Shown in pieces: positions 28,114-54,871 of a DNA stretch of 55,543 nucleotides. The notes below the pieces were generated by a model. The model was not told the DNA's origin, searched no databases, and saw only the letters and a list, made by a program, of their open reading frames with translations. Source of the stretch: Nitrospirota bacterium (lineage in GTDB: Bacteria; Nitrospirota; UBA9217); contig JAOUEV010000017.1 of assembly GCA_029858565.1 (NCBI GenBank), positions 1-55,543 of the forward strand, in the 5' to 3' direction. The position numbers and the translations under genes are program-made. Numbering within the stretch: the stretch's first letter is position 1; each line of letters begins with the position of its first letter.

Positions 28114-28231
28114 TCCTTTGGCCATAAAAAAAGACACGTGATGCACCAGGGAAAGCTACGGCTCATTATTGAGATATACCGCAGGTGATTTCTGTGAATT
28201 TTGTGGCTAACTATAGTTTTAGGAGATGATC

Positions 28232-34345: not shown

Positions 34346-34421
34346 GGGGCTGTAGCTCAGCTGGGAGAGCACAAGGCTGGCAGTCTTGGGGTCAGGGGTT
34401 CGATCCCCCTCAGCTCCACCA
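34346..34421 (+). tRNA. tRNA-Ala(GGC)
   Basis: A full 76-base cloverleaf with encoded CCA. The acceptor stem is GGGGCTG/CAGCTCC (one G-U), the D stem GCTC/GAGC, the anticodon stem CAAGG/TCTTG with loop CTGGCAG (anticodon GGC, decoding GCC), and the T arm AGGGG-TTCGATC-CCCCT. It is the intact attachment gene for the island to its right; its 3' half is repeated at 34586, 52587 and 54347. Confidence 0.95.
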
Positions 34422-34495
34422 AAAACAACAAATGGGTTGGCGTAAGCCAGCCCTTTTTTGTTTTTGATCAAGTGGGGATCGAACGAGAGGGTCTG
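34377..34495 (+). repeat. Attachment-site repeat, copy A (intact tRNA 3' half plus terminator)
   Basis: From the anticodon loop (CTGGCAG) through the CCA end and terminator to GAGAGGGTCTG, 119 bases match copy C at 52587-52705 with only a few changes. This is the left end of the first 18.2-kb element. Confidence 0.85.
34434..34465 (+). terminator. Terminator of tRNA-Ala
   Basis: GGGTTGGC-GTAA-GCCAGCCC (one G-T pair) followed by TTTTTTGTTTTT. It is copied with the attachment repeats at 34618 and 52653. Confidence 0.88.
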
Positions 34496-34585
34496 GGAGA
34501 GAAACTCTCCCAGGCTTCGGGGGTAACAGGCCGGATTCATCGGCCGCCATAGGGGGCTGGCCCCCTGTGGAAGCGAAGCGCGTAA
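34474..34585. mobile_element. Multi-hairpin miniature element between attachment copies A and B
   Basis: GGGGATCGAAC (34474-34484) is a perfect reverse copy of the T-arm string GTTCGATCCCC (34399-34409). Then come three hairpins: CTGGGAGAG/CTCTCCCAG (34493-34513), GGCCG/CGGCC (34529-34545) and AGGGGGC/GCCCCCT (34551-34566), ending in GAAGCGAAGCG. Copy B resumes the tRNA exactly within the T loop. A related unit splits copy D near 54373-54473. Non-coding. Confidence 0.55.
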
Positions 34586-34668
34586 GATCCCCCTCAGCTC
34601 CACCAAAAACAACAAATGGGTTGGCGTAAGCCAGCCCTTTTTTGTTTTTGAGCAAGTGGGGATCGAAC
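34586..34668 (+). repeat. Attachment-site repeat, copy B (tRNA 3' end from the T loop)
   Basis: 83 bases from GATCCCCCTCAGCTCCACCA through the terminator to GGGGATCGAAC match copy A (34402-34484) with one difference, offset by exactly 184 bases. It lacks the 5' part of a tRNA and is not a second tRNA gene. Confidence 0.85.
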
Positions 34669-34690
34669 CAAAGGGTTATGGGGAAAGATT

Positions 34691-35065
34691 CTATCGCTTC
34701 TTCACATATTTCACGCCTTCAACATCTTTCAAGTCACTGTCCTGTGTCCAGATAACCGCGTCATGAATTCTGGCGGTTGCCACAATCACTGCATCCGCCA
34801 TAGGTAATTTTGTTTCATAGCCAATCTTCGCGGCAGTAACGGCGGTCCCGCTATCAAGGTCAATCACCTGTCCCTGCTGCATCAAAGCAACAGCCTGCAA
34901 TGCCGCATCCTCGCCTCTCTGCTGCAAAATCCGCTTGAATACCTCCAGAATGCAGAGCGTCGGGACAAGCAGATCATCGACGTCTTCAATGGCAGGAGCG
35001 AAGAAACCCGCATTCGGTCCATCGGCAAGATATTCGAGCCATCCACAGGAATCGACGAGGTTCAT
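34691..35065 (-). CDS. VapC-like PIN-domain toxin
   Basis: A 124-aa PIN-domain ribonuclease. Acidic residues of the active site are visible: D5 (NLVDSCGWLEYL), E41 region (CILEVFKR), D90 region (PMADAVIVATA) and D108 region (IWTQDSDLKDV). Its start overlaps the antitoxin stop by four bases. It probably cleaves RNA when released from the AbrB-type partner. It sits at the left edge of the island, where such pairs stabilise mobile DNA. Confidence 0.88.
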   Translation of the reverse strand: MNLVDSCGWLEYLADGPNAGFFAPAIEDVDDLLVPTLCILEVFKRILQQRGEDAALQAVALMQQGQVIDLDSGTAVTAAKIGYETKLPMADAVIVATARIHDAVIWTQDSDLKDVEGVKYVKKR

Positions 35066-35268
35066 ACGCGGTCTTTCTCCCTGTTCACCGTGGTATCAAT
35101 CCCCTTCAGAAATCCGCGCATGGACTTCACTTTTTTCACCGGCACGAGCTCGATCCGGTTTGCGTAATTGATGACCTGCATCTTCTCTCCCGGCTTGATG
35201 CTCAGAGTCTCCCGAACATCACGCGGGATTACAACCTGGTACTTCGGGGAAACAGTGACGGTTTTCAT
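35062..35268 (-). CDS. AbrB/MazE-type antitoxin
   Basis: A 68-aa swapped-hairpin DNA-binding protein: MKTVTVSPKYQVVIPRDVRE followed by IKPGEKMQVINYANRIELVPV. It neutralises the adjacent PIN toxin and likely represses the pair. GGAGG five bases before the ATG at 35268 supports this start over the frame's ATG at 35280. Confidence 0.9.
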   Translation of the reverse strand: MKTVTVSPKYQVVIPRDVRETLSIKPGEKMQVINYANRIELVPVKKVKSMRGFLKGIDTTVNREKDRV

Positions 35269-35320
35269 GGCGACCTCCATCGATAGTCTATGCGTAATAC
35301 TATATCATCATCGATGCCCC

Positions 35321-36070
35321 CTGACAAGAGAAAATACATATCTGCCTCTCCTGTCATCACTGCGAGACAGAGGCGCATATCTCAAGAAACAGCGCGAGCT
35401 GAGCGACATGTCCCTGCGGGACGCGGGCGCAGCAGCCGGGCTTTCGCACGTCCACGTCAAGGAAATCGAGGACAGCGTCACCACCCCGTCGTTCGACAAG
35501 GTGATGCGGCTGGTAAAGGCCTACCATGCTGACCTGCAGGACTTCCTGAGGGCGACCGGCTACCTGCCGAAGAACACGGAGGTCGCGTCAATCGGCAAGA
35601 TGCGGAAGATCCCGGTCATTTCCTGGGTGGCTGCCGGCAGGTGGACCGAAACAGGCGAGATGTTCCTTGAGGAAGATGTAATCGAGTGGATCGAGACCGA
35701 CGTGAAGGGCGAGCACAACTTCGCGCTGCATGTGAAAGGCAATTCCATGGAGCCGGAGTTGAGCTCCCCTGAAGCAATTGGGCTCGTCTCTCAGGGTGAG
35801 TAAGCTTTTCCGTATCCGCTCGCCGCGCTCACTCCAGAGTTCAAGGAAGGCGAAACTCTCGTTATCAGCCCTACTGCGAAAGCGGAGAACGGCGACTACA
35901 TTATCGTGAAGAATGACGAGGAAGAGGCGACGTTCAAGCAGTATAAGAGATACGACAGTATGAAAATCCTCCACCCCCTCAATCCTCAGTATAATGACAT
36001 CGTCCTGAATAAGGATAAGGAATACCGGGTCGTCGGGGTGGTGATGGAGAAGAAGAAGAGGTATAAGTAA
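35321..36070 (+). pseudogene. Interrupted Xre/S24 (CI/LexA-like) repressor
   Basis: An N-terminal helix-turn-helix (AYLKKQRELSDMSLRDAGAA, GLSHVHVKEIE) is followed by an S24 peptidase-like domain with nucleophile Ser in VKGNSMEPE and Lys in ATFKQYKRY. Between MEPE and FKEGETLV an 81-base in-frame insert brings a TAA at 35801-35803. Without the insert the frame runs intact to the TAA at 36070. At the 5' end no in-frame ATG, GTG or TTG lies close to the helix-turn-helix; an ATG at 35314 is in another frame. So the gene is probably inactive, or makes a truncated DNA-binding protein without the sensing domain. It may have controlled the island. Confidence 0.8.
35759..35839. other. 81-bp insertion in the S24 domain, with 5-bp direct repeats
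   Basis: GAGTT occurs at 35756-35760 and again at 35837-35841, bracketing the extra DNA as a target duplication would. The insert has no coding sense and carries the stop. Its right part, reversed, reads TGAGCGCGGCGAGCGGATAC. Confidence 0.65.
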
Positions 36071-36098: not shown

Positions 36099-37307
36099 TC
36101 ACATCAGCGTTACGTGAAAGTTCATCGGACGAAGCACATAGCCGGCGCTTCTCAGGGATGGCCTTTGCAGCGGAAGCACTTTCGGCGCCTTGCTGCTTGC
36201 CCGAAAAACGAGATAGATATGATAATTTGCCAAGCTTTCGGATTTGTCCAGCTCATTTGTTGAAATGTAAAAGCCTCCGCTCAGATTAGCAGCGCTTGTT
36301 GATTTCACTTCAATCGGTCGTTCACTTCCATCTACATCGAATGAGAGGATATCATAACCAGCACCGGCGTTTCTCTGAGATACGTGAACGATCCTTCTAG
36401 CGAGCTCTCTTTTACCCGCATCGATGAATCTCTTTTTCTCAAGTTCGAGGACGACTGCTTCTCCTCGGTCACCAATCCGCCTCAATTGTTTCTGACGCAT
36501 TTCGAAATCACCGGGACCCGTGTTGCCTCGTTCAGGAGTCGTGCGTTGCATGGGCGGCATCTCATCGATAAAAGCCGCCCCCTCTATGGCGTCACTGAGA
36601 ACCGGATAGGAGCCAGTCGCAGTAGCAGTAGCGGATGCGGCCTGATCGGGCGGATATCCAAACACGTGGTACAGCAACCGCATATATAAATAGATCGGTT
36701 GAGACGTTAGATCCGGCCATGTGGAACGGTATTCCATCAGGGCTTTCTGCATCGCAACTTCGGAATCAAAAGTTCCCGGAAGATTGAGCTCAGAAACGAA
36801 ATGCTGAAGATGACGTTTTGAGTAAATGGGCGCGAATCTATCGGGATAGTACAGGAAAAGGATCTTCCCTTTGAACATAGGGGATATCTTGTTTTCTTTG
36901 ATTGCGGCCATGTCATCTGTTTTCGCCGCATCCAGGAGCTGAACAAGAGCAGCCTTTATGTTATCGAAGGCCTGCGTATGATTGCCTCCCCAATGTGCTG
37001 CATGGCGGTATCTCTCTCTGTGGTCGCTCTTCGTTTTGCCGTAGTAGACGCCGAACTTAGCAGCCGTCGCACCCAGGATACGGCCGCATTTATCTAACTC
37101 GCGCTCTAATCTATAGCAAAACGATCGGTTGTCTCTTCCCCTCCCAATTACGAAGTCGTCTATCCGCATCTGCGCTATCTTACGCGGTGTATAATCGGAC
37201 ACAAACCGCCGTCGGCGCTCCTCAGTAGCTCTCCATTCTTCGCGGTCTCTCTCAACAAGAATCGGCACCTGCGCGTTGATCTGTTCTGCCATTTCTATGC
37301 GATTCAT
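36099..37307 (-). CDS. DUF3883-domain protein, PD-(D/E)xK nuclease-like
   Basis: A 402-aa protein. The N-terminal 250 residues are unrecognised, helical and contain GKILFLYYPDRFAPIYSKRHLQHF. The C-terminal domain is DUF3883/NO VEIN-like: GDRGEAVVLELEKKRF, then GAGYDILSFDVDGSERPIEVKST, with D and ExK placed as in restriction-type nucleases. It could be the DNA-cleaving part of the defence operon. AAGGA is seven bases before the ATG, and it starts 49 bases after the helicase stop, so it is probably co-transcribed. Confidence 0.75.
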   Translation of the reverse strand: MNRIEMAEQINAQVPILVERDREEWRATEERRRRFVSDYTPRKIAQMRIDDFVIGRGRDNRSFCYRLERELDKCGRILGATAAKFGVYYGKTKSDHRERYRHAAHWGGNHTQAFDNIKAALVQLLDAAKTDDMAAIKENKISPMFKGKILFLYYPDRFAPIYSKRHLQHFVSELNLPGTFDSEVAMQKALMEYRSTWPDLTSQPIYLYMRLLYHVFGYPPDQAASATATATGSYPVLSDAIEGAAFIDEMPPMQRTTPERGNTGPGDFEMRQKQLRRIGDRGEAVVLELEKKRFIDAGKRELARRIVHVSQRNAGAGYDILSFDVDGSERPIEVKSTSAANLSGGFYISTNELDKSESLANYHIYLVFRASSKAPKVLPLQRPSLRSAGYVLRPMNFHVTLM

Positions 37308-37356
37308 GATTAGTCCTTTTTGCTATGGGACATAAAGGAGTGTCTGTTTCTTTCGG

Positions 37357-40170
37357 CTATCCTACATGTATCCCGACTAACGCCGTCGTCACTCGCGCCC
37401 GTTTCTGGCGGTCCGGGATCCATTCCAGGATTACGCTCTTCATGGCTTCATCAAAACGCGCCTGAAGCCTGTTGACATCAAGACCTGCCAAAGACGGCGG
37501 GTTGGCAACACTCTCGGCCTTTGTCCATTCTATACGTTCGCATTCCTCTATATTCCCTTCCGGAACACCCCGCAAAGTGAGCACGCGCGAGGTTGCATGT
37601 CCTGGCTTATCTTCATATCGGACAAGATACCGGGCGTAGATTACTACTTCACTGCCGATCTGTGAAACCTCACCTGTAAAGCTCGGCTCAGACACCTCTT
37701 TTAGAAGAGCATCAATCAACGGATGCCCGATGCCGCCCAGCTCACTGCCGCGCTTTCTGAGAGACAGCGCACGATCAAAGCATACGTTCTCGTAGCGCGG
37801 CGCAAGATGATAGCGGCGCTGCAAGGATTCAGGAACATGGAATGTCCATAGTTCACCTTCCGGCATTGCTGCACCACCGAGACGAAGGATGGTGCTTCGC
37901 ACCCACTGACCCAACTCGTCCATCGTATGTCTGCCCTCGATGCGACGGTAATTTTCCAGGTTGAACTGGGTCAGATCCTGAGAAAGAGCGCTCAGTGCTT
38001 CCCGAGCCCGGTTTGCCTCCTTGATCATCTCAACCATGTCCTTCTCTGTCCTTCGGTAATCCCGATCAACCAGAGCGCGTTTGTACAATTCCTGATAATC
38101 GGGACGGCTTCCTAACAGACCGAGGATTTCGCTTTGAAAATCTTCCCGCACATGCCCTTGTTCATCCACCTTGCCGATGGACTCCGCAATCTCAGTTAAT
38201 TTATATTGAAGCATGTCATAGATACGTTCTTCTACTGTATCGTCGGCAAAAAGGTTGTACACCTGCACTGTCTCAAGCTGGCCGTAGCGATGAATGCGGC
38301 CGATGCGCTGCTCCACAGCCATGGGATTCCAAGGCAGGTCGTAATTGAACAGTATTCTACCGATCTGCAGGTTGATGCCTTCGCCTCCTGCTGACGTGCA
38401 AATCAGGAAGCGCGCACCGTTCTCTTTCCAAAAAGACTCCATCGCAGCGATCTTGTCTTCAAGCGGACCGCCTTTAATATTCGCGATAAAACCATGACCA
38501 AAAATGCGGCCCAATTCCTCGGAAAGAAATTCGAGCGTATCCCGATACTGCGTGAAAATAACAAACCGCTCAGCTGGATTGTCCCGTGATAGATCACTAA
38601 TCGCGCGCACTAGCGTTTCAAAGCGGCGGTCTGTGCCATCCGGCACATGGCTGATGAGATCGCGTACTTTCCGTATCTCATCCGGAATGTCAGTCTCAGC
38701 GAACACTCCCTCTTCGCCTTCTTCATCACCGTCGAGCGACCAGTCGGTCGTCTCTGCCTGTTCCTCTCGCTTCTGCAAACGCCGCCTGACGCGGCCAACA
38801 TAGGCCTCGGCATCACTGTTCGTTGCTGACGCTTCCCCGAGGATCGCCCGGGCCACGGCTTGCGTCTCATCCTGGAGGCGCATGATCTCTTCTGCAAAAG
38901 ATGCAGCTTTCGCGGGTGTCTGCGTACTGCGTCGTCGGGTTTCCAATTCAAGCTGTTTGCGTACGAGCAAGACCAAGAGCCGCCGCCGCAGTGCCTGGCG
39001 GATAGCTCGCGGACTGGAAGACATGATCTTCTGGAACGTCGCCATAACAAAGCCGATCGCCCGCTGCTGGCTTGTAGTCCTCTTTTGATCGATACCAGCT
39101 GCGCTGTAGCCTTCGCGCAGATACTCACTCAATTGATCGTAAAAATGCCGCTCGCGTGGGGCAAGCGAGAAACGTTCGGTATGCACCTGACGCCTGCGGA
39201 AGATCGGCTCGCCGGATGAATCAGTCACTTCGCGTTTTGTGCGCCGGATCATGACACGGTTCAAGAGACCCATGCGGTTATTAACCGCTTCCGGGTCCGC
39301 AAAGAGCTGGTCATCGAGAATCTGGATCAAAGACCAAAACTGAAACGCGTTGCCCTGATGAGGTGTAGCGGAAAGGAAGATAAGATCGCGCGCGTGGTTC
39401 CGCAAGGCCTCTGCAAGTTTGTAGTTTTGCGTGGTCACCGTCTTCTTGCCGCTCTTGGTGCGTGAAACATGGTGCGCCTCGTCGATGATCACTAGGTCCC
39501 ACGGAGCAGCCGCAAGCATCCGCTGCATACGGCGCGGCACTTTAAGCGTATCTATCGAAACGATGACCTGATGGTGACGTTCCCAGGCAGCAGAACCATG
39601 GTCCTGAAAATCCCGGCCCAAGATATCGAAATGCAGCCGGAAACAGCTATCGAGTTCCCTGCGCCAGTTCTCGACCAGGCCGGCAGGGGTCACGATCAGG
39701 ATGCGCTCTACGTCTTTACGCGCTATCAACTCGCGGATCAGCATCCCCGTTTCGATGGTCTTTCCAAGACCGACTTCATCAGCGATCAGCACTCGGCGGG
39801 GAGATTGATTGACCAGATCATGAACCATGAGGATCTGGTGCGGAAGCAAATCCACCCGGCTTGCGGAAAGTTCGCCGCCCGTGTTGGCAAAGCTCATATC
39901 AAGGGCCATCTGCTTGATACGATAGTCCCGGGGATCGTCAAAGCTCCCGGCAGCAAGTCTCTCCCACAAGTCAGCGGCCTTCTCCAGCCATTCAATCGGC
40001 ACGTTCTCGACTCGCTCGCCATCTGCTGTTTTAAAAAGCACCTTGGCCTGATAAACGCCTAACTCTTCGGAGACGCGTATTACCTCTCCGACACCCCACT
40101 CTGGATGGCTCTTCACGCGGACTTTGTCGTCCCGATTGATTGCTATATATGCTGTACTCGTCTCACTCAT
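37357..40170 (-). CDS. SNF2-family helicase/translocase (BrxHII/DrmD-like)
   Basis: A 937-aa superfamily 2 motor. An N-terminal beta-rich segment (DDKVRVKSHPEWGVGEVIRV) is followed by Walker A (IADEVGLGKTIETG, K137), VSIDTLK, IIDEAHHVSR, FLSATPHQGN, FVIFTQYRDTLEFL, CTSAGGEGINLQ and the arginine-finger motif QRIGRIHRYGQ. A coiled region (about residues 430-500) separates the two lobes. This architecture matches the large SNF2 helicases of BREX and DISARM loci, which act with a DNA methylase. Start overlaps the previous stop by four bases. Confidence 0.88.
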   Translation of the reverse strand: MSETSTAYIAINRDDKVRVKSHPEWGVGEVIRVSEELGVYQAKVLFKTADGERVENVPIEWLEKAADLWERLAAGSFDDPRDYRIKQMALDMSFANTGGELSASRVDLLPHQILMVHDLVNQSPRRVLIADEVGLGKTIETGMLIRELIARKDVERILIVTPAGLVENWRRELDSCFRLHFDILGRDFQDHGSAAWERHHQVIVSIDTLKVPRRMQRMLAAAPWDLVIIDEAHHVSRTKSGKKTVTTQNYKLAEALRNHARDLIFLSATPHQGNAFQFWSLIQILDDQLFADPEAVNNRMGLLNRVMIRRTKREVTDSSGEPIFRRRQVHTERFSLAPRERHFYDQLSEYLREGYSAAGIDQKRTTSQQRAIGFVMATFQKIMSSSPRAIRQALRRRLLVLLVRKQLELETRRRSTQTPAKAASFAEEIMRLQDETQAVARAILGEASATNSDAEAYVGRVRRRLQKREEQAETTDWSLDGDEEGEEGVFAETDIPDEIRKVRDLISHVPDGTDRRFETLVRAISDLSRDNPAERFVIFTQYRDTLEFLSEELGRIFGHGFIANIKGGPLEDKIAAMESFWKENGARFLICTSAGGEGINLQIGRILFNYDLPWNPMAVEQRIGRIHRYGQLETVQVYNLFADDTVEERIYDMLQYKLTEIAESIGKVDEQGHVREDFQSEILGLLGSRPDYQELYKRALVDRDYRRTEKDMVEMIKEANRAREALSALSQDLTQFNLENYRRIEGRHTMDELGQWVRSTILRLGGAAMPEGELWTFHVPESLQRRYHLAPRYENVCFDRALSLRKRGSELGGIGHPLIDALLKEVSEPSFTGEVSQIGSEVVIYARYLVRYEDKPGHATSRVLTLRGVPEGNIEECERIEWTKAESVANPPSLAGLDVNRLQARFDEAMKSVILEWIPDRQKRARVTTALVGIHVG

Positions 40171-40589
40171 GTCAAATTAAACCCCACAAGATAAAATTCA
40201 TTGCCTGCCCGATCCTGTTTGTGCGGTGAACCGAAGATGCGACGCAGGGAAATTCGTTCCAGTCCTACTTCGAACCAGAAGTCGTCGGCTTGATTCAATT
40301 TCCGTTTGAATACGATCTGTACATAGCCGCCCATTCGTTCCAGCTCATTTGCCCGCGATGCTAATAAATCGTGAATGTATGAAGAAACAGAATCCCGATT
40401 CTCCCCTGCTGCTATCAGCACATCTTCGACACCTTCGATGAGGATCTTATGGCCTCGCGGAAAGTGGAACGGCTCTTCCCGCAGTTCGCGGAGATAATCC
40501 AGAAAGCCCATCCGGACTTGATTCGGCTCAATGCCGCCTTCTCTTTCATCCTTCAGAAACTTAGTTTCGATAAGCAGGTATCCTGCCAT
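40167..40589 (-). CDS. 140-aa accessory protein between methylase and helicase
   Basis: I do not recognise the family. The ATG at 40589 shares one base with the methylase stop (TGATG) and the stop overlaps the helicase start, so expression is coupled on both sides. The protein (MAGYLLIETKFLKDEREGG...) is soluble with mixed alpha/beta pattern and no P-loop or metal motif. It is therefore not BrxF. Its position recalls the small DUF3780-like proteins found with DUF1156/DUF499 genes, but that is a guess. Confidence 0.7.
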   Translation of the reverse strand: MAGYLLIETKFLKDEREGGIEPNQVRMGFLDYLRELREEPFHFPRGHKILIEGVEDVLIAAGENRDSVSSYIHDLLASRANELERMGGYVQIVFKRKLNQADDFWFEVGLERISLRRIFGSPHKQDRAGNEFYLVGFNLT

Positions 40590-43500
40590 CAGATCGCCCC
40601 TCCATGGCGCAACAGAGGCGCGCCCTCTATGACCCCGATCACCCGGTCGATTGCGCCTTCCCAATCCGACCGAAGCTGCCGTACATACCGCAAACCGGCA
40701 AGAATTTCAGAACGCCTGGCATCGAACCGTTCGAGCCACGGCAGAACACTCTCTCCTGCATCTGACAATGCGATAAGAGCATGCAGCAAGTCTACCAGCA
40801 GCACTTTGTTATTCGACGGCAATTCGCCCTCAAACAGCTCTTCCTGCGTTTCGCCGGTTTTCGCTCTCAGTATTGAGAGTACATCTTCCAGCCGTTCCCT
40901 TGGTTGTTTTACCTCGTAGGTACGACCGCGTCCGGTCCTCCCTTTCACTATCAGTCCTGCCTTTTTCAGATCCTCTGTGCTCACTTGAAGCGCCCGCGTA
41001 CTCTTGGTGATCTTGTCCATGCTCACTTCGCGGCTATGCCCGGCCAAAAGTCGCAGCCACGCATAAGTGAGAAAATCCACCTCTTCCAGTTCCGGCGGCA
41101 AAGGCCGCTCGCGCGTCACGAGTTGATCAACGATGCTGCTGATGTCCTGAAGCGCCTTATGGAGAGGATAAGTCATTCCTTCATGGTCCAGCACCTTGTC
41201 ATAGTGCGTGCTGTAAAGTTCCAGACACTTGCCGATGCAGATCAACCGCACATCCGGTTCCGGCAATGGTTTGTTCCCGTATCGCCCAGCCTCAATAGCC
41301 AAAAGTTCCGCCCGTGCAAGACGACGAACTTCCTGTCGAATGCCCGCCCATGATCGCGCAGTCGGGTCTTCCTTGCGCTTACGGCAGACGTGGATAAGGT
41401 CAAATGAAATATTTTCTTTATCCATCAAGTGGAGGGATGATTCTGCTTCGCTATGAACTGGGTAAACAGCGGCAATTTCAAAGCCAGTATCGCACAATGA
41501 CTGGAGCAACCCTTCCCACACAGTGCCTGCCTGGTCAGTGTGATGAAACGTAAAAATCAATAACCCGTCTTCCGGCAATTGGTCATGAACACGCTGAAAT
41601 ACAGTGGAAAGTCCCTTATAAAAATCTTCCCGGCTTTTTCCGCGTGTCCGATTTTCGACAACCTCTTCCGTTTTTGGGGTATATTCCGGCGCAAACCAAG
41701 AGTAATGGCCTTTAAGTGCCAGCCGCAGCCAAACATAAAAGAAGTCGGCGAGCTCCGAGTAATTGACGTTGCCAACGTAAGGCGGATCAGTAACAACAAT
41801 CGTGGGTGTTTCCGATGATACTTCTGCTGAATTCGCGCAATGCAACAAACGACTAGCATCAGTCAATTTATCGGTTTGAATTTTAACACGGTTCTCATCA
41901 TCAGTATTCGCTTTAAAGTCCCATCCTTCTGTTTGGTAATCAACACCGCCAACTACGAGCCCATATTCAGACAAAAAGGACCCAGCGGCGATACTCGGCA
42001 AACCAAAAACATTATTTTCCGCTGTCGTTATTTTTGTTTGGAAGTCGTGCCGTGCAAAAACGCCCTCAGCGGTCAGACTGCCTACTGCAGAGCGAGATAC
42101 ACGGTGGCGTGTAAATAGATTGTTAGCTTCCAGCGTATTTGAATACGCACACAACAGCATCTCCATCAGCTTCTCGTCCTTCTCAGCCATGATACCTTCA
42201 AGCAATGTTGAAAGCGCAAGAAGCTGGCGCGTCCCAAACATATCGTGCCATTGATTGTAGTGATGTTGAAGCAGTCGCGCAGTTTCTGCCCCATTTGGAA
42301 TAACACTCTTGGGATATGGCAGGCCTGCCTTGTTCTTCTCCCACAGGCGTTCTGCATTTTGTAAACGTGCCTGATCGGAGGCTGACCAGCGCTTAAAGAA
42401 CTTGCCATTTTTAGGAAGAAGCAATCCCTTTATTTCATCATTAGAAAGGGTACCTGATGCTTGTGACAAAACGCCGAACATCGTTTGCTGACTATCATCC
42501 ACCTCTTCTACCGGCAGGACATAGGCTTGAAGTGCATAAGGACGAACTGGCAATCTGCGCTCCTGCGGAAGCAGTCTAATGCTTTCAATGATCCTATCCT
42601 TGTTTCCACAGCGGCACTGGAAATAACCCTTCTCAGGAAGATTGCCTTTGCTCGGATCATAGTTATGATTGCACGCGGGGCAAGATAATTCACCCTCGGG
42701 TAGGGGGCCGCGCCACTGCCATACCGCTTCACAGGATGGGCAAAGCATCACAGTGATCTGAACTTTTTTCCGTGCCTTCTTCTTGTCCCACGGAACCCTT
42801 GCCTTGAAATTCTTCTCACAGTGAGGACAATCCAGCGTCACAAGGCTTTCATTTGATTTTTTCTTAGGCTTGGGGGGCTCGACCGTGTAAGTCCATGCCG
42901 TAGTAGGCCTTCCTTCGCCGCCGGACCCGCGAGAGCTGTTAACCATCATTGCCGGTTCAGCAATAAGTGAAGCAACATCCACTTCCCAATCAAAGGTCTT
43001 CTTGCATTCTGGACATTTTGTATCGCGATGATAGCGTACAGAAACCGTCTTTGCGGCTACGAAATAATCCTTGAACAATGGGACTTCTTTTTTACAGGTG
43101 GGATCTGTGCAAATCGCATGTTTGACCCAGAAGGTATAGATGACATCCGCATCAATGCCGGACGCTACCTCGGTCTTGTACAGATCAAGAAGCGTCTCGC
43201 GCATGGGCTTTCCGTTATTCCAAGCTACAGGTCGCGCTGCCAGTCTTTCGAAGGCTGCCTTGAGCGCATCGATTTCGACCGGTTCCACTTCTGTCTTGAC
43301 GATGAACCAGGCAACCGGATTCAGGTCTATTCCCACGACCTTACAGCCAAGCCGCAGCGCCTCCACCACAGTCGTACCGCCACCCATGAACGGATCGAGC
43401 ACCACCTTGCCCGTGGTATCCGGGTCTTTGTTGTGGTCCTTGTAGAACTCCGCCATGAGGTCAACCGGCGTTCCGTCTTCTTTGTATGCCGGTTTGAGCG

Positions 43501-43675
43501 CACCGAGCAGAATCGCCCGAAACACGCACGACGCCCGCCGAGCAAACCATTTGTGCATCTGGTAGATCGGCTTAAAGCTGCTCCTCTCCGGCTCGGCAAG
43601 ACGGTTTATTTCGACAATCGGAAAGCCGACCTCGATGGCGCGGCGCGAATGGATTTGTGACTTGTTATCACTCAT
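40589..43675 (-). CDS. DUF1156 adenine-specific DNA methyltransferase (PglXI-like)
   Basis: A 1028-aa methylase. The N-terminal DUF1156 segment (SFKPIYQMHKWFARRASCVFRAI) leads into SAM motif I (VLDPFMGGGTTVVEALRLG, residues 92-110). A large insert with several CxxC pairs (CPECKKTF, CPHCEKNF, CPSCEAVW, CPACNHNY) looks like zinc ribbons. The catalytic VTDPPYVGNVNYSE lies near residue 630. The C-terminus is helical. This family is the methylase of type 3 BREX and of related DUF499 loci, marking self DNA on adenine. Start overlaps the ATPase stop by four bases. Confidence 0.9.
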   Translation of the reverse strand: MSDNKSQIHSRRAIEVGFPIVEINRLAEPERSSFKPIYQMHKWFARRASCVFRAILLGALKPAYKEDGTPVDLMAEFYKDHNKDPDTTGKVVLDPFMGGGTTVVEALRLGCKVVGIDLNPVAWFIVKTEVEPVEIDALKAAFERLAARPVAWNNGKPMRETLLDLYKTEVASGIDADVIYTFWVKHAICTDPTCKKEVPLFKDYFVAAKTVSVRYHRDTKCPECKKTFDWEVDVASLIAEPAMMVNSSRGSGGEGRPTTAWTYTVEPPKPKKKSNESLVTLDCPHCEKNFKARVPWDKKKARKKVQITVMLCPSCEAVWQWRGPLPEGELSCPACNHNYDPSKGNLPEKGYFQCRCGNKDRIIESIRLLPQERRLPVRPYALQAYVLPVEEVDDSQQTMFGVLSQASGTLSNDEIKGLLLPKNGKFFKRWSASDQARLQNAERLWEKNKAGLPYPKSVIPNGAETARLLQHHYNQWHDMFGTRQLLALSTLLEGIMAEKDEKLMEMLLCAYSNTLEANNLFTRHRVSRSAVGSLTAEGVFARHDFQTKITTAENNVFGLPSIAAGSFLSEYGLVVGGVDYQTEGWDFKANTDDENRVKIQTDKLTDASRLLHCANSAEVSSETPTIVVTDPPYVGNVNYSELADFFYVWLRLALKGHYSWFAPEYTPKTEEVVENRTRGKSREDFYKGLSTVFQRVHDQLPEDGLLIFTFHHTDQAGTVWEGLLQSLCDTGFEIAAVYPVHSEAESSLHLMDKENISFDLIHVCRKRKEDPTARSWAGIRQEVRRLARAELLAIEAGRYGNKPLPEPDVRLICIGKCLELYSTHYDKVLDHEGMTYPLHKALQDISSIVDQLVTRERPLPPELEEVDFLTYAWLRLLAGHSREVSMDKITKSTRALQVSTEDLKKAGLIVKGRTGRGRTYEVKQPRERLEDVLSILRAKTGETQEELFEGELPSNNKVLLVDLLHALIALSDAGESVLPWLERFDARRSEILAGLRYVRQLRSDWEGAIDRVIGVIEGAPLLRHGGAI

Positions 43676-45507
43676 ATCACAGAGTTATTTGCAATAGCAG
43701 AGAATCCCGTGAATATATCCACTACATCTTGCAATGCTTGCGGTTTTGATTTCATAGCAATGTCCACATATGCCTCTCGGATTCGCGTGTGGTCTGACTG
43801 GAAAAATTCACCGCAGAATCTATTAAAAATCAATTTACCAGGAAGCATCAACTTAAATGCATCCGATTCAAGCGATTTACGAAGCCGCTCATGCTCGGCT
43901 CTTATCGCAGCATCAAGCGCTTGAGGGCTTAGTGATGACGATATTGTGGAAAAAGAAGATGCCACTTGGCTTGAAATATCATTGATAACTTCATCAATCG
44001 ATAAACGATCAATATTTCGAACAGTTGGTTGAGGTAAAGCGCCCATGAGCCGTATATGCTCTCGTACATTCCATAGCACGGCAGGCATCAAACTGGATGC
44101 CGCAGTATGTACCAGGGTCTCTCTTATTTTGCTTGGGTCTCTACGATCTGTTGGCAAATACAAGGTCTTAGCCACTTCGGAAAGTACATGTTCATCAAGA
44201 AAATAATTTTCTACATGGCGCGCAGGAAGACACTTAAACCGCTTGTTTGTTTCCAAGGTTGCAATAACATCGTTGGATAGTCCGTCGCGATCGCGAACGA
44301 GAAATAGCTCAATGCCAAATATCGCGCTGCCAAGTTCATCAATGACCGATCGGAGCGCGATGATGTTTTCAACAGAACCAATTGGCATTAAGTAGGAATC
44401 AGGAAAGGTCGTTTGTGCGACCTTATGATATACAAGACGGTCGATGCTTGCGGTATTGCCTTCGATAAACACCAGCCGTTTGCCCACAGCAAACAAGCCA
44501 AGATTGGCACCAGCGGATCGGGTCACAGCAGAATTAATATCATTTAATGAGCTTAATTTATGAGCTTGATTGCCGTTTGTCGCGGCAGCATCGATAAAGA
44601 AAACATTTCCAGCAGAGTAATAAGTTGAAATCAGATCGGCAGAATGTGTGAACAGAATAAGCTGATTGGTTCCTCCCCCAAAATCCTTTAATGTTTCAAT
44701 TAACCGAAACGCGAGTGTGGGGTGAAGATGGAGCTCTGGTTCATCGATGAGAATAATAGAATGCGTAATTTGCTTCCAAACCAGGTCAAACGCAATCTTA
44801 ACGACTTCCTGCTCCCCCGAACTCAGCGCGCCGAAAGCCATGGGCTGAGACGTACCAATCCTGTAGTGAAATTCCCGTGGCGCTTTAGGATCTATTGGCT
44901 CTAATGTCTTTCCCGGTAAAAGGCGGGTAAACATCTCCTGGTAGGCAAGGAAAGGATCTGGATGTTTTAGCAAAGCTTCACTACCAAGTCGGTCTGGATG
45001 TGCCTTTATAAAATTTGCAATCTTTTGATCCCGGTTTGCGGCCTTCTTATATATTTTATTAACGAGTTCCTGCCAGCGTCCAATAAATGGGTTCAAATAC
45101 CATGAATAAGGTGTATCTTGGTCATCTGGGTCTGGTGTGGCCAACGTGAATTGCTCGAATCGCACCGGTTGAACGGCTCTATTGGAGTCAATTTGAATGA
45201 CTGCGCCTGTATATGCCTGATTGCCACGACGAGACGCAAGATATTGCTCTAGTTGTTGGCACCTTTGCTGGACATTGACGGCGATCGACATTGATTTCCA
45301 TGCATCTTCCTCTTCTTGCCGTGTAGCCGACAATCCCATTGTAACGCTCGGCGAACCTGGCGACTGAAACGTACTAACTATGGCTTGTTTGAGTCGCGTC
45401 TTTCCAGAACCGTTGGCGCCAGCAATAATGACAACATTCGATGACGCTTCTATTTCCAAAGCGCGAATTGGTGGATAGTTCTTAATAGCGATGCGATCCA
45501 GCCTCAT
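43672..45507 (-). CDS. AAA ATPase with DUF4435/Toprim-like C-terminal region
   Basis: A 611-aa OLD-like ATPase. Walker A is IAGANGSGKTRLK (K36), an ABC-type signature is FGALSSGEQEVVKIAF, and Walker B is IILIDEPELHLHP. The second half has KRLVFIEGNTASIDRLVYH, LFLVRDRDGLSND and LPARHVENYFLDE, matching the DUF4435 pattern (a Toprim-like acidic site). Such proteins are frequent defence effectors. AT-richer than the genes around it. It begins 61 bases after the cyclase-like gene and overlaps the methylase start, so it links the cassette with the BREX-like part. Confidence 0.85.
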   Translation of the reverse strand: MRLDRIAIKNYPPIRALEIEASSNVVIIAGANGSGKTRLKQAIVSTFQSPGSPSVTMGLSATRQEEEDAWKSMSIAVNVQQRCQQLEQYLASRRGNQAYTGAVIQIDSNRAVQPVRFEQFTLATPDPDDQDTPYSWYLNPFIGRWQELVNKIYKKAANRDQKIANFIKAHPDRLGSEALLKHPDPFLAYQEMFTRLLPGKTLEPIDPKAPREFHYRIGTSQPMAFGALSSGEQEVVKIAFDLVWKQITHSIILIDEPELHLHPTLAFRLIETLKDFGGGTNQLILFTHSADLISTYYSAGNVFFIDAAATNGNQAHKLSSLNDINSAVTRSAGANLGLFAVGKRLVFIEGNTASIDRLVYHKVAQTTFPDSYLMPIGSVENIIALRSVIDELGSAIFGIELFLVRDRDGLSNDVIATLETNKRFKCLPARHVENYFLDEHVLSEVAKTLYLPTDRRDPSKIRETLVHTAASSLMPAVLWNVREHIRLMGALPQPTVRNIDRLSIDEVINDISSQVASSFSTISSSLSPQALDAAIRAEHERLRKSLESDAFKLMLPGKLIFNRFCGEFFQSDHTRIREAYVDIAMKSKPQALQDVVDIFTGFSAIANNSVI

Positions 45508-45568
45508 TTTGATTCAACCTCCTTGCTGCCCGAGCATCTTCTTTCTGACCAGATACGATTCTGCGACA

Positions 45569-46432
45569 TCAGATAGCACAATCCTTGATGAATCCATTCT
45601 CTTCGCATATCGTATTGTGGTATTGAGCCAGCCATTCGTATTTGGCTCGGACATGAGTGTCTGAAATATTTTTCGACGCTGTAGTAATCGCGTCTCTGTG
45701 CCGTTGTAGCAATTTAATCGCATTTGATCGGTAGCCAATGGTCATTATTTCACTTTTTCGTTCACCTGTTGCCTGCCTATACTCTTCAATTTGCTTCATG
45801 GAAGTATGCCATCCTACTGACTGCATACATATATTCAGATAGTCGATAAAGTACTTCGGTGTCTTGCTTTTTGTCTCTGCATATTTACGGAACGTCATTG
45901 GTATCGGGTCTATATCATTGCTATAATGCTTTCTGTGTTTGTGCTTTTCAAAGTAGCCGTAAACCTGGTCAGAAAGCATCAACACCGGAACATTGGCTTC
46001 ACGTTCAAGATTATATGCATTTGCCATTGCTGGACTAATCAACAGATCGCCGTCCGCATACCACCAGCCGAAATCGATGCCTCCGCGCAAGAAATAGCCA
46101 TTGAGTACACTATTACCTTGAGCATATGCGAAGGAAGTGAATTCGCTCATTATTGAATCGAATGCCCCCTCCGTTTCGGTCATATCTGATTTTATTGGTA
46201 TAGATATGACTATACAGTCGGAAAAAGCCAACACTTCTTTCTTATATAATGCATGCATTCGTTGAATATCAATGTCAGAAGATCGATACTCGAACTCATC
46301 ACGGACTTTCCGTAGTGCTTTTTCGATTTCTTCAAGTTCTTCCTTGGAACGAACCGATCGCACTTTATCAGAAAAACCGAGCAAATCGACGAACGCGCTA
46401 ATCGTGTGGCACAGCTTTGACTCATCTATCAT
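45569..46432 (-). CDS. Class III nucleotide-cyclase-like protein (Pycsar-type candidate)
   Basis: A 287-aa protein with the core pattern of class III nucleotide cyclases: SAFVDLLGFSDKV (D16), VLAFSDCIVISIP (D72), then YFLRGGIDFGWWYADGDLLISPAMANAYNLE. The two aspartates occupy the metal-binding positions. The N-terminal VDLLGF form and RGG/AYxLE block recall the stand-alone cyclases of Pycsar defence. The substrate (cCMP, cUMP, cAMP) cannot be read from sequence, and it could also be an inactive relative. The ATG at 46432 follows GGAG and sits 13 bases after the previous stop. No cyclic-nucleotide-binding effector is recognised beside it. Confidence 0.6.
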   Translation of the reverse strand: MIDESKLCHTISAFVDLLGFSDKVRSVRSKEELEEIEKALRKVRDEFEYRSSDIDIQRMHALYKKEVLAFSDCIVISIPIKSDMTETEGAFDSIMSEFTSFAYAQGNSVLNGYFLRGGIDFGWWYADGDLLISPAMANAYNLEREANVPVLMLSDQVYGYFEKHKHRKHYSNDIDPIPMTFRKYAETKSKTPKYFIDYLNICMQSVGWHTSMKQIEEYRQATGERKSEIMTIGYRSNAIKLLQRHRDAITTASKNISDTHVRAKYEWLAQYHNTICEENGFIKDCAI

Positions 46433-46445
46433 GCCGTTCCTTCTC

Positions 46446-46787
46446 CTACAGAGCCGCAAATATTTGTCGTACGATCTTGTTTGTCATCGTATTGGAAAAA
46501 GACGCCACAACGCTTCCTTGCGTCGTTCCCTGCCGTAGCTCTACCTCGCCTGTATCATGGTTGTATGAGAGAGCGTATCTTTTCCCGGCCACCTTGAACC
46601 ACAAAACGTTCTTCATTTCACCTTCACGTACCATAATTTCAAGTGGATCATTATCCTTCCGCCATAACACACCGCCCGCTATGGCCAATGCTACTTCGTT
46701 AACATCTTGCGCGTGATGGTCTGCCCTATCAACAACGCCCTTAAGATAATCTCTCAAAAGATCAACATCAGTTATTTGCTGTGGCAT
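46446..46787 (-). CDS. 113-aa protein of unknown function in the cyclase cassette
   Basis: Not recognised. An N-terminal helical part (LLRDYLKGVVDRADHHAQDV) is followed by a beta-rich part (VLWFKVAGKRYALSYNHDTG, EVELRQGTTQGSVVASF). No membrane segment or catalytic motif is seen. The ATG at 46787 has a purine-rich GAGGGG upstream; a GTG three codons earlier is an alternative. It lies 35 bases after the HEPN-like gene and 13 before the cyclase-like gene, so the three form one unit. Confidence 0.7.
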   Translation of the reverse strand: MPQQITDVDLLRDYLKGVVDRADHHAQDVNEVALAIAGGVLWRKDNDPLEIMVREGEMKNVLWFKVAGKRYALSYNHDTGEVELRQGTTQGSVVASFSNTMTNKIVRQIFAAL

Positions 46788-46822
46788 GTGAGCCACCCCC
46801 TCACGCTTATTTTGATGCGTGT

Positions 46823-47662
46823 TTATTTTCCGGCTGCTTTTGCTGTTTTTTCTACTTTAGTTAGCAAGCGGATCGCGGCATGATACGTTGCTAAATAAAA
46901 ATGAAACATCCATGCATACCAGATGTTCTTGTCATAGTTTGATTTCTGCTTCGGATCGTGATGACGTATGGAGAAATTGTTCGCTATATCAAACAGCGCA
47001 GACTCATCCTTGCCGTCAAGCACTTTATCGAGGCCCTTGGTCTTCTTGAGCCACTCGAAGACATCCGCCATCTCCCGAACAGCTTCTTTCTTTTCTGTAA
47101 AAGACAAATGGCGATTTCGCCATTTTGTAATTGCATTTCTCACCTTGCTATCCACATTGGCTTCATCGTATGGGAGTATTTCAGCATCAAGTATGTGTTG
47201 TAGTCCTTGAGAACCAATAGCGAGGATAGTCCCGTCTTTCATCAGTTCGTATCCTGTCTTGTAATCACAAAGGAACGAGTTAGCCGTGTCTCTGAATTCT
47301 GAACGGCCGGCGTCGCTATCATAAGAACCGTAGTCTGAGTAGTTCCACCCCGAATCCGACACGAAGTCTTCCAATTTGCCCGGCTTAGACACGTGGTCAT
47401 AAAGAAACTCAAGCGCATCGAAGATATGATCCTCGGTAATTATTTCTTGCGCCCATTTCGTTATCGGAAAAGGCTGGAATGTCAATGCAATCGCAGCTTC
47501 GTGCTTTATAGAATCAGGGATGCCAGTTTCCGTAATCCCAGCCTTTTCTTTAAAATAGTCTTTGCTGCGAAAAAGCAGAAATAGATTCTGCATCTTCCAA
47601 TAAAGCTCTTCCAGAGTTAGGCTCGTCTGATTCTTTCTTGAACTATAATATCGTTTCGCCAT
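46823..47662 (-). CDS. Abi/HEPN-like protein (putative effector)
   Basis: A 279-aa soluble protein. The C-terminal part, ALFDIANNFSIRHHDPKQKS...WYAWMFHFYLATYHAAIRLL, resembles abortive-infection C-terminal/HEPN-type helices, where an Arg-His-containing loop can form an RNase site. The middle has GYELMKDGTILAIGSQGLQHIL. The N-terminus is helical. Family assignment is from pattern only. It is first in the three-gene cyclase cassette, so it is a possible effector. Confidence 0.55.
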   Translation of the reverse strand: MAKRYYSSRKNQTSLTLEELYWKMQNLFLLFRSKDYFKEKAGITETGIPDSIKHEAAIALTFQPFPITKWAQEIITEDHIFDALEFLYDHVSKPGKLEDFVSDSGWNYSDYGSYDSDAGRSEFRDTANSFLCDYKTGYELMKDGTILAIGSQGLQHILDAEILPYDEANVDSKVRNAITKWRNRHLSFTEKKEAVREMADVFEWLKKTKGLDKVLDGKDESALFDIANNFSIRHHDPKQKSNYDKNIWYAWMFHFYLATYHAAIRLLTKVEKTAKAAGK

Positions 47663-47679
47663 ACTGTGATTCCAGATTC

Positions 47680-47838
47680 CTATTGCACACTATATTCCAG
47701 ATCAGCTCTACCCGAATCCCAAGTATGAATGTAGGACAGTCCGATATGTGCTACTGACAGAATACAGACCAGCAATACGTGATACTTGTTCAGCCAGATT
47801 CTTGCATTTTGGACTACTCGCTTCATTTTATTGTCCAT
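47680..47838 (-). CDS. 52-aa single-pass membrane protein
   Basis: The ATG at 47838 has AGGAGG eight bases upstream, which is one of the strongest ribosome sites in the island. The product is MDNKMKRVVQNARIWLNKYH followed by one membrane helix (VLLVCILSVAHIGLSYI) and a short acidic tail (TWDSGRADLEYSVQ). The stop is 17 bases before the Abi/HEPN-like start. It could be a membrane-acting toxin, an anchor or a regulator of the cassette; there is no homology to decide. Confidence 0.6.
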   Translation of the reverse strand: MDNKMKRVVQNARIWLNKYHVLLVCILSVAHIGLSYIHTWDSGRADLEYSVQ

Positions 47839-47954
47839 AGTCGTTCCCTCCTGATTGTTGGTATTCGGGACCGCCCTACAGACATACTCGGTAGCCACCA
47901 GGCCATGTAGTTCGGGAATCGAGTACAACTGATCTGTTTATCCTCCTCTAATAA

Positions 47955-48470
47955 TTACAATCGAAGGTCCGTCGGATAGTGGACCGCGATCTCTGTTACC
48001 CCATGAAATGCCTTATCGCTCGACACGAGCACATCCGCCTTCAGCCTCAGTGCTACCGCCAGCACTACTGCGTCATTCGTGAGAAAGCCGTACTTCTCCT
48101 GCATCTTGAACGCGGTCTTCGTGAGGTCTTCCAGTGTGCAGGCCGCGAACCCAAGTCCAAGGTCCACGAGTGCATTGACCTTTGCCCGGTAGAGGCTCAG
48201 GCCTTTGACGACCTCTGGTTTTGACGCAAGGCGCAGTGCCGGTTTTCCCTCCGCGACGAGGCCCTTCATCATTGCCTCTGCAAGCATCAACTTGTGAGTC
48301 AACTCCTGCCACACGGTCTGCGGCAGAATGCCTGACAACTCACCCTGGGCGCAGCGCCGGATAAATCTCTGGGCCTGGACCGAAGAGCCTTGCTCCGCAT
48401 AGAGCAACACATTCGTGTCGATCACGCAGACGCTGCCGCTCGGGATATCATCGAGATTTACAGATCCCAC
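47955..48470 (-). CDS. PIN-domain toxin
   Basis: A 171-aa PIN protein. The acidic site is D18 (VCVIDTNVLLYAEQG), E55 region (TVWQELTHKLML), then FLTNDAVVLAVAL and VLVSSDKAFHGV. It overlaps the antitoxin gene by 13 bases. It is longer than typical VapC (about 130 aa) because of a helical insert at about residues 65-100. It lies between the PglZ gene and the cyclase cassette, so it may act as an addiction device holding the locus together. Confidence 0.87.
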   Translation of the reverse strand: MGSVNLDDIPSGSVCVIDTNVLLYAEQGSSVQAQRFIRRCAQGELSGILPQTVWQELTHKLMLAEAMMKGLVAEGKPALRLASKPEVVKGLSLYRAKVNALVDLGLGFAACTLEDLTKTAFKMQEKYGFLTNDAVVLAVALRLKADVLVSSDKAFHGVTEIAVHYPTDLRL

Positions 48471-48700
48471 GCATCCTCCTCAAGAACCGCCTTGAACTGC
48501 GCAGAGGTCAACTTCATCGGTCGATCGCAAAAGAGTTGATAAGCGGCATCTCGTTTTACCGGATCGGCGCCCTTGGGAGACAGATAGTTTTCGAGTGCTT
48601 CCTGGATCACATCGCTCAAGGGGCGCCCTTCATCTGCAGCTCGGCGTTTTGCCCGGCGCAGCACGTCTTCTTCCAACAGTGTTCCGACTTTCTGTTTCAT
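48458..48700 (-). CDS. Ribbon-helix-helix antitoxin
   Basis: An 80-aa protein with an N-terminal RHH DNA-binding fold (KVGTLLEEDVLRRAKRRAAD, GRPLSDVIQEALENYLS) and a C-terminal tail (LTSAQFKAVLEEDAWDL) that probably wraps the PIN toxin. It starts 12 bases after the PglZ stop, so it is likely co-transcribed with the defence genes upstream as well as autoregulated. Confidence 0.85.
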   Translation of the reverse strand: MKQKVGTLLEEDVLRRAKRRAADEGRPLSDVIQEALENYLSPKGADPVKRDAAYQLFCDRPMKLTSAQFKAVLEEDAWDL

Positions 48701-48712
48701 ACGACACCTCCG

Positions 48713-49705
48713 TTAATTCACCGGTCCCAGCACGATCCACGGCGTGAGCATTTCCATGAGCGTCAATGCACCGTGCCGATAGACGGACTGCGCGCCCGGC
48801 CCTTGTATCCTGTTGTGCCCTCGTCCTGCGATCACCGCCAGCCGCATGGCAGGATCGACCCACAGCCCATCACCTGCCTTTGGCAGCTGTTCGGTTGGTC
48901 CGAAAAAACGATAGCGCTTTCCTTCCAGAGCCCGGTCTACGTCTTTCAAACCGGGATCGCTCAAGCCGGGGCCAAGAAATATATATCCATGGTCGCTCGT
49001 TACGAGTACTTTTCGATCCGGCGGCACCGCCTGGACCGTGCGCTTCCATGCCTGCTCCAGCCCGTCCCAAATGCCGTCGAACATCGACTCATCGGTTGCG
49101 GTGCTGTCGGTGTAGCGCTGGTCCGGAAACCGGGACCAGAGAAGCATTGACTCGTCGCCGTCTCTGATCGTGTGATGATCGCTGGTCTGGCCAAAGTAGT
49201 AAAACCGGATATTCCTTTGCTTCAATTCTCCACGGCCGGTGAGCTGCGAGGGACCAATATCCTTCGGCAGGCCAAGGCCGAGACGCTCGGATATGAAATA
49301 TTCGGTCTCGCTCGGCACAGCAGCGCGGCTGCACCCGCTTTCCAGAACAGCGCGCCGGGAGTCCTTAGCCAGGGCGATTAGCCTCGGCATCTCCCGAAGC
49401 GAACAGCCGTCCAATATCACGACAGCGCTTTTCTGGTTGCGCCCGAAGAAGGAGGCGACCGTCCTTTCCGCTGACGGCGGCGCAGTCAGCTCAGCAAAAA
49501 GCGATGAAGCCGAGCTTCGTAAAGCATTTTCCCTCTCATTCACCAGTACTTCACCGCGCCGCAGATAGTCCTTAGGCGAGTTGCCCGATGCGGCAAACGC
49601 GTCCTGGGACCAAACTTCATTAAGCAGCCAGTTTTCAAGTCCCGACAGACGCGGGCCAGGCTGCGTGAGGCGCTCAATGAGGGCGCGATCCAGCGCGGCT
49701 TTCAT
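48713..49705 (-). CDS. pglZ: PglZ-domain protein (short form)
   Basis: A 330-aa alkaline-phosphatase-superfamily protein. Metal-ligand positions are visible: D99 in AVVILDGCSLREMP, D238-H239 in VLVTSDHGYIFLG, and H311 in VYRHGALTLMEMLTPWIVL, the usual PglZ ending. PglZ is the hallmark of BREX and Pgl defence. BREX type 1 PglZ is over 800 aa, so this is a short variant with only about 90 residues before the domain. It follows the DUF499 gene by 2 bases and is presumably coupled to it. Confidence 0.87.
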   Translation of the reverse strand: MKAALDRALIERLTQPGPRLSGLENWLLNEVWSQDAFAASGNSPKDYLRRGEVLVNERENALRSSASSLFAELTAPPSAERTVASFFGRNQKSAVVILDGCSLREMPRLIALAKDSRRAVLESGCSRAAVPSETEYFISERLGLGLPKDIGPSQLTGRGELKQRNIRFYYFGQTSDHHTIRDGDESMLLWSRFPDQRYTDSTATDESMFDGIWDGLEQAWKRTVQAVPPDRKVLVTSDHGYIFLGPGLSDPGLKDVDRALEGKRYRFFGPTEQLPKAGDGLWVDPAMRLAVIAGRGHNRIQGPGAQSVYRHGALTLMEMLTPWIVLGPVN

Positions 49706-49707
49706 TT

Positions 49708-52320: not shown

Positions 52321-52327
52321 GACTGGT

Positions 52328-52356
52328 AGAATAGCACAGAATTCTTGAAGTGTCAA
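52328..52356 (-). promoter_or_regulatory. Promoter of the defence operon, leaderless
   Basis: On the minus strand a consensus TTGACA (52356-52351), 17 bases, TATTCT (52333-52328); then 7 bases to the ATG at 52320. Transcription should begin at or within a base or two of the start codon, and no Shine-Dalgarno is present. Confidence 0.7.
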
Positions 52357-52440: not shown

Positions 52441-52705
52441 GTGCTAAAATTGTGCTAAAACGTATCCGAACAGGCATAATCATCGTAATAGCCGTAATCA
52501 CCGTAAGGTCACAAACTCCTTGATTCACTGGCAAAAACGGGAAACCAGGTGATAACTCAAGGATTGTGATTTTCAGCCCTGCCCTACTGGCCGTCTTGGG
52601 GTCAGGGGTTCGATACCCCTCAGCTCCACCAAAAACAACAAATGGGTTGGCGTAAGCCAGCCCGTTTTTGTTTTTGATCAAGTGGGGATCGAACGAGAGG
52701 GTCTG
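52441..52705 (+). repeat. Attachment-site repeat, copy C with element-specific arm
   Basis: Two parts. 52441-52586 is an arm starting GTGCTAAAATTGTGCTAAAA that matches 54201-54346. 52587-52705 is the tRNA-Ala 3' half plus terminator and flank, nearly identical to 34377-34495 (T-arm base changed to GATACCCC, T tract changed to GTTTTT). It marks the right end of the first element and the left end of the second. Confidence 0.85.
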
Positions 52706-52718
52706 CGATTAGGGGACG

Positions 52719-54372: not shown

Positions 54373-54473
54373 GCTTGCCGAACCAAGGGAGTTTGAGGGA
54401 AGGACTTCCCTCATGTTTTGGGGGAGTACACGAGGGGGCTGGCCCTTTCGTGAAGCGAGCATGCGAGCGCGCG
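54367..54473. mobile_element. Multi-hairpin miniature element splitting copy D
   Basis: Starts with the palindrome GGTTCGGCTTGCCGAACC (54367-54384), then the hairpin GAGGGAAG/CTTCCCTC, then GAGGGGGCTGGCCC and GAAGCGAGCATGCGAGCGCG. Its right part resembles the element at 34551-34585, and both end against the T-loop half of the tRNA. Confidence 0.55.
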
Positions 54474-54555
54474 AGATTCCCCCTTCAGCTCCACCAAAAA
54501 CAAAAAACAGGGCTGACCGAAAGGTCAGCACTGTTTTTTCAAAAAGTTGTGATCG
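54474..54555 (+). repeat. Attachment-site repeat, copy D (right part) with variant terminator
   Basis: GATTCCCCCTTCAGCTCCACCA resumes the tRNA 3' end with two changes. The hairpin ACAG-G-GCTGACC-GAAA-GGTCAGC-A-CTGT plus TTTTTT (54507-54539) replaces the terminator of copies A-C, followed by GTGATCGAAC. Confidence 0.75.
54507..54539 (+). terminator. Rho-independent terminator in copy D
   Basis: An 11-bp stem with one mismatch, a GAAA tetraloop and a T6 tract. Confidence 0.8.
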
Positions 54556-54871
54556 AACACATGGATTATGAGGAAAGGAATTTCCCATTGATGTGGAGCA
54601 GCTTGGGATAAGTTGGGCTTTTTCGTAATAAAAGCGTGAAATATTACTACTAGTTCCATAAGAATCGCAAAGGGGCAACGATTACCCCTGGTCCCTGCAT
54701 TACGCTACCCCTCTCACTATTGAACTGTTCAGTTTCATGATATCCCTGCTAGATCCGCTATGAATGTTCCTTTCCAACTACCATCCAGCGCAACAACTAC
54801 AACAGGAGTTGACATCCCGGGTCTTCGAGGTAATATAGTGGACTTCGGGAGCACTGCTGTATCAGGAGGAA
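54556..54871. other. Spacer between the island and the M20 peptidase gene
   Basis: No convincing gene. The string TGCATTACGCTACCCCTCTC (54697-54716) resembles the region just before tRNA-Ala (TTACATTACCCCTCGCC), possibly an old copy of its flank. A promoter for the peptidase probably lies here, but I cannot assign one. Confidence 0.35.

Follow-up and report, generated by a model that had tools for sequence, protein, structure and literature searches.

Among short palindromic repeats, REP families that carry GTAG or CGTC tags have been described, including intragenic ones (PMC3733652), in-frame insertions of Rickettsia palindromic elements (RPE) have been summarised (PMC10969869), and a 2025 survey tabulates Nitrospirota species with REPs (PMC12306157). 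The portion of the literature covered by our search held no description of a two-hairpin repeat family in Nitrospirota, the REP table of the 2025 survey lying outside that comparison. The Nitrospirota repeat described here is similar to REP/BIME and REPIN elements (RAYT/TnpA-REP) in being short, palindromic, dispersed, mostly intergenic and present in many copies, both as singles and in tandem clusters. However, its consensus A3 lacks the GTAG and CGTC tags of those families (PMC3733652), its unit has two non-identical hairpins in 105–118 bp, and a full copy flanks none of the 50 Y1 transposase loci examined (one partial match over 27 model positions at E = 0.0012, and two matches at E = 0.085–0.45), so that we draw no link to RAYT. 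Like RPE, it is palindromic and can be inserted in frame within genes, adding coding sequence (37 codons in locus L061), whereas most Nitrospirota copies look intergenic and the copy in the present locus brings a stop. It shares with MITEs a non-autonomous, gene-less nature and a direct repeat at the insertion site, but neither long terminal inverted repeats nor a parent insertion sequence was recognised for it. The interrupted gene itself resembles lambda CI and PHROG family phrog_4 in its HTH, its Ala-Gly linker and its S24 domain with Ser and Lys, with a conserved operator by the start in relatives; in contrast to these, the present copy is interrupted and lacks both start and operator.

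We interpret the locus as a REP/MITE-like Nitrospirota repeat inserted in a lambda-CI/LexA-like repressor gene, which is decaying and most likely gives no working product (probability about 0.85). The window, that is, the whole stretch analysed, comprises 55,543 nucleotides, with the following features:

34377..34498, forward strand: likely left end of an island, the 3' part of tRNA-Ala and following bases, 122 bp
34691..35065, reverse strand: PIN-domain toxin, forming a pair with a MazE/AbrB-type antitoxin
35062..35280, reverse strand: MazE/AbrB-type antitoxin, divergent from the repressor
35360..35758, forward strand: 5' piece of the CI/LexA-like repressor, with HTH, Ala-Gly linker (SWVAAGRW) and the start of S24 up to GNSMEPE; CTG at 35360
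35756..35760, no strand: left GAGTT, target sequence (codon GAG plus TT)
35761..35836, forward strand: 76-bp core of the insert, a short variant of the palindromic repeat that lacks the second hairpin
35801..35803, forward strand: in-frame TAA in the insert; the nearest relatives, in genome G010, have TGA at the corresponding place and the same right-end frame
35837..35841, no strand: right GAGTT
35837..36070, forward strand: 3' repressor piece (EFKEGETLVISPTAK...), the remaining S24 with the catalytic-Lys motif TFKQ
36099..52356, reverse strand: defence-type block convergent with the repressor, encoding a NOV_C/PD-T4-1-like protein, an SNF2 helicase (HmaA/BrxH-like), a DUF1156 methylase (HmaB-like), an AriAB-like ATPase, a weak PglZ-like protein and a DUF499/HmaC-like ATPase
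52587..52708, forward strand: likely right end of the island, the second 122-bp direct repeat

The preliminary description reported an Xre/S24 repressor in frame around an 81-base insert that carries a TAA and is flanked on both sides by GAGTT, and the sequence, the reading frames and the Pfam matches agree with it. The 81-bp insert amounts to 27 codons and leaves the reading frame the same on both sides, with the stop following the 15th added codon. The two GAGTT copies lie 81 bases apart, and we estimate the chance of a 5-base direct repeat exactly at the insertion junction at ∼0.5%. In the 5' frame, ...FALHVKGNSMEPE-LSSPEAIGLVSQGE is followed by a stop, with GNSMEPE preceding LSSPEAIGLVSQGE, and the 3' frame, in the same phase, reads (FPYPLAALTP)EFKEGETLVISPTAK...KKKRYK up to its stop (also written ...EFKEGETLVISPTAKAENGDYIIVKNDEEEATFKQYKRYD...). 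HTH_31/HTH_3 and then Peptidase_S24 were matched on the two pieces, profile positions 1–55 of Peptidase_S24 falling on the left piece and positions 45–116 on the right one. No continuous frame holds both catalytic residues: in an alignment with lambda CI, the left piece has the Ser of GNSM and the right piece the Lys of TFKQ, with the TAA at 35801 between them. Because these residues are on opposite pieces, self-cleavage of the repressor is impossible.

The insert was absent at the same codons from seven sequence records, namely a paralogue on contig C61 of the source genome and six Nitrospirota homologue records (L016–L021; G042 is apparently the same record as L021, with identical nucleotides). 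The joins read SMEPEFNDGD in the paralogue, SMEPEFKEGE in G042/L021 and L020, SMEPEFREGD in L017 and L018, and SMEPEFKEGV in L019, bearing out the predicted MEPE-F join. We looked for homologues with the same insert and found none. Given that the paralogue and the homologues lack it, the insertion is polarised at this site as a gain in the window lineage. The other doubt raised beforehand, that the TAA might be an assembly error, is unlikely to be justified since the insert is a recognisable member of a repeat family. Among intact relatives, L017 matched the lambda repressor structure 3bdn; their best solved-structure match was lambda CI and their PHROG match was phrog_4, a transcriptional repressor. 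The paralogue shares 80% and 76% DNA identity with the window repressor on the two sides of the insert and lacks the HTH start. Its locus (L012; G000:C61, 1501–12000), in which the first part of the HTH is missing, adjoins a defence-like cluster with a Z1-type helicase, an Hsp90-type ATPase, a Vsr-like nuclease and a C5 methylase, named by eye from translations. Both repressor copies of the source genome are thus damaged.

The surroundings of the window gene give a different picture from the "repressor of the island" proposed in the preliminary description. A 122-bp direct repeat (34377–34498 and 52587–52708, 96.7% identical) begins inside tRNA-Ala (34346–34421) and likely marks the ends of an island of about 18 kb, whose defence-type genes are similar to Hma and BREX parts; further partial copies of this repeat occur at 34586–34676 and 54433–54577. 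The block at 36099–52356, a mixture of Hma-like (HmaA/B/C), BREX-like (BrxH, weak PglZ), AriAB-like and PD-T4-1-like proteins, is possibly a variant of a known system. The repressor is transcribed toward the island genes, convergently rather than divergently, and has its upstream region in common with the toxin-antitoxin pair. The operator motif of its relatives, AACTATAGTT, was not found in the island with up to one mismatch. Homologues adjoin genes read as Mu-like phage genes in L016/L021, L019 and L020, whereas in L017 and L018 the neighbours are helicase or restriction genes. A role as repressor of the island is therefore unsupported by the convergent orientation, the operator search and the Mu-like neighbourhoods of several relatives, and it is simpler to regard the gene as a captured regulator of prophage type. 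The sole exact AACTATAGTT in the window (28209–28218) lies just before the ATG (28226) of an ABC transporter ATPase gene and may be merely a −10 box.

The preliminary description had suggested a search of the genome for other copies of the 76-base core. With the raw core, the best match in the source genome was 16 bp, at chance level, because the copies have diverged. A search of 396 Nitrospirota genomes with the core found a relative in G010 (E = 6e-9) in two copies 80 bp apart. When the G010 copies, and after them a full-length copy from G006, served as probes, a dispersed family came to light, including diverged copies in the source genome itself. Another match from the core search, in G155, lay in a sensor-kinase-like ORF, possibly shares only a palindrome, and was set aside. 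A hidden Markov model built from the G010 copies, with the window excluded, matched the window at 35759–35852 (E = 1.3e-10, 36.6 bits), compared with E = 0.7 for the best of 30 shuffled windows. The window copy was not reported at E ≤ 0.01 by a profile from full-length copies alone; it is diverged and short, lacks the second hairpin as do the short G010 copies, and is tied to the full-length family via these G010 intermediates.

The family is a non-coding, two-hairpin palindromic repeat of about 80–118 bp, whose full unit reads ATTGAAGCTCCCTGCAGCAAGCTGCAGGGAATCTTCGA...AAGG...TTCGCTCGCTAACCCCGCAGCAAGCTGCGGGGAATGCGCTCGCT..., with short, solo-hairpin and tandem forms. Tandem arrays with a period of about 108–110 bp were observed at G009:C29:17402–17740 and G010:C217:17178–17407. 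Scored copies numbered 42 in G006, 53 in G009 and 47 each in G010 and G012, four related species, and 5 in the source genome, with none in G001, G005, G007, G008 and G013; the full-length family was found in 44 of the 396 genomes, representing 36 of 170 genera. Hairpin pairing is conserved with covariation: 93.5% of cells were paired, seven pairs had changed on both sides, and both-side cells numbered 22 versus 5.5 in shuffles, with none of 500 shuffles as high. When the single window copy was folded on its own, it did not surpass shuffled sequences, so that the hairpins are evident only from the family alignment. Rfam returned nothing relevant to the repeat, neither the insert nor the family hairpin, searched as exact patterns, had a match in viral contigs, and searches of plasmids and phages gave no significant match. 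A resemblance of GGTGAGTAAG...CCAG to a eukaryotic intron was dismissed as coincidence.

Four orthologous pairs of filled and empty sites were identified, with the copies in G006 or G009 (L061/L119, L080/L139, L096/L142 and L088/L145). The empty sites carry (A/G)TTNA (GTTGAA, ATTGA, ATTCA and ATTAAA), and the window target GAGTTCAA fits the same pattern, as judged from homologues such as L020 (GAGTTCAAAGAAGG). The comparison of filled with empty sites shows that copies have been gained or lost at (A/G)TTNA, in a direction that we infer outside the window. RPE-like in-frame insertion is clear in one of the pairs, L061/L119: in G006 (L061, 1419–2162) a full-length copy lies in frame within a hydrolase-like gene and adds 37 codons, giving the protein GLKHKLGLK...FKVNFLNWPEYRG versus GLKHKLGLKVNYLNWPEYRG without the copy, while the G009 orthologue L119 is empty. 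At both of its ends, the copy in the window shares the frame of the L061 copy, but it has the TAA inside. Most other copies appear intergenic; those in L063, L047 and L080 closely precede start codons and are not within genes. The copies in L057, L053 and L051 are crossed by long open frames, which we consider likely to be spurious or antisense.

Alternatively, the insert could be a MITE that belongs to a DDE insertion sequence and duplicates strictly 5 bp of its target, a reading that we consider unlikely although it fares best among the alternatives. In its favour, GAGTT lies on both sides of the window insert, and GGATT lies on both sides of the L061 copy, with GGGTT in the empty orthologue. 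However, there are no clear terminal inverted repeats beyond TTGAA/TTCAA, and most copies other than those in the window and L061 have only (A/G)TT common to both edges, so that only part of the GAGTT repeat is demonstrated as target duplication. At the right edge, the family has GAATTC or GGATTC and the window has GAGTTC, identical to the target; given the GAATTC of related copies, the window edge requires either a true duplication or a change. Overall, the GAGTT pair is a direct repeat consistent with target duplication and is no proof of a DDE transposase.

Apart from the insertion, the repressor gene has lost its normal beginning. The palindrome AACTATAGTT lies just upstream of the repressor in all six homologue records, in three copies in G042/L021 and L019, and the homologue genes have short leaders and ATG starts. 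In the window, AACTATAGTT is missing from this place and CTG (35360) stands at the conserved start, with no ATG, GTG or TTG there. The gene is thus damaged twice, by the insert and by the loss of start and operator. Given that it has lost both a normal start codon and the operator/promoter motif found in its relatives, we read it as decaying, and most likely no working repressor is made. Since synonymous sites were mostly saturated, dN/dS values for the two pieces carried no information. CI/LexA proteins dimerise through the C-terminal half of the S24 domain. The expectation that the S24 domain would be lost stands in so far as the split removes its second half, but the stable, uncleavable repressor proposed as one consequence is unlikely given that a usable conserved start, the conserved promoter/operator and the dimerisation half are all gone.

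A truncated protein of HTH and half of S24 that acts as a non-inducible repressor and alters the damage response of the island is accordingly very improbable, even though the HTH and linker are intact and the open frame runs upstream to in-frame ATG/TTG codons within or before the antitoxin gene: no site like the relatives' operator AACTATAGTT was found in the island, in addition to the missing start codon, operator/promoter and dimerisation region. We give still less credence to readthrough of the TAA, by which the in-frame insertion would preserve the protein as it does in L061. The length of 81 bp maintains the frame, which is also the one used by the family in the L061 hydrolase; however, the nearest relatives of the window copy also have a stop (TGA) at the corresponding place in that frame, so that the element most likely brought the stop with it, and the gene is also damaged at its 5' end. 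Filler DNA from a repair event, with no link to a mobile repeat, would fit the first search of the source genome, which gave no second copy, but is hardly credible against the HMM match obtained with the window left out and the end-to-end resemblance of the insert to its relatives, unless the family is convergent.

In the mechanism that we propose for the REP/MITE-like insertion, a trans-acting enzyme would have moved a non-autonomous palindromic repeat, using as intermediate a hairpin of single-stranded DNA, and the repeat was inserted at GAGTTCAA in a prophage-type repressor gene. The insertion left GAGTT on either side and brought in 27 codons, the 15th of which is followed by a stop; translation ends between the catalytic Ser and Lys of S24, so that neither a dimer nor a self-cleaving protein would be possible.

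By itself, the broken repressor is an ordinary case of a gene decaying within a genomic island. What the insert exposes, on the other hand, is a dispersed repeat common across Nitrospirota, with filled and empty sites in sister species, which both breaks genes and extends them in frame. Tentatively, these may be previously undescribed, phylum-wide, two-hairpin mobile repeats with a preference for (A/G)TTNA(A) and in-frame lengthening of proteins. They offer a testable case of the movement of such repeats and of the new protein sequence that arises from them outside Rickettsia.
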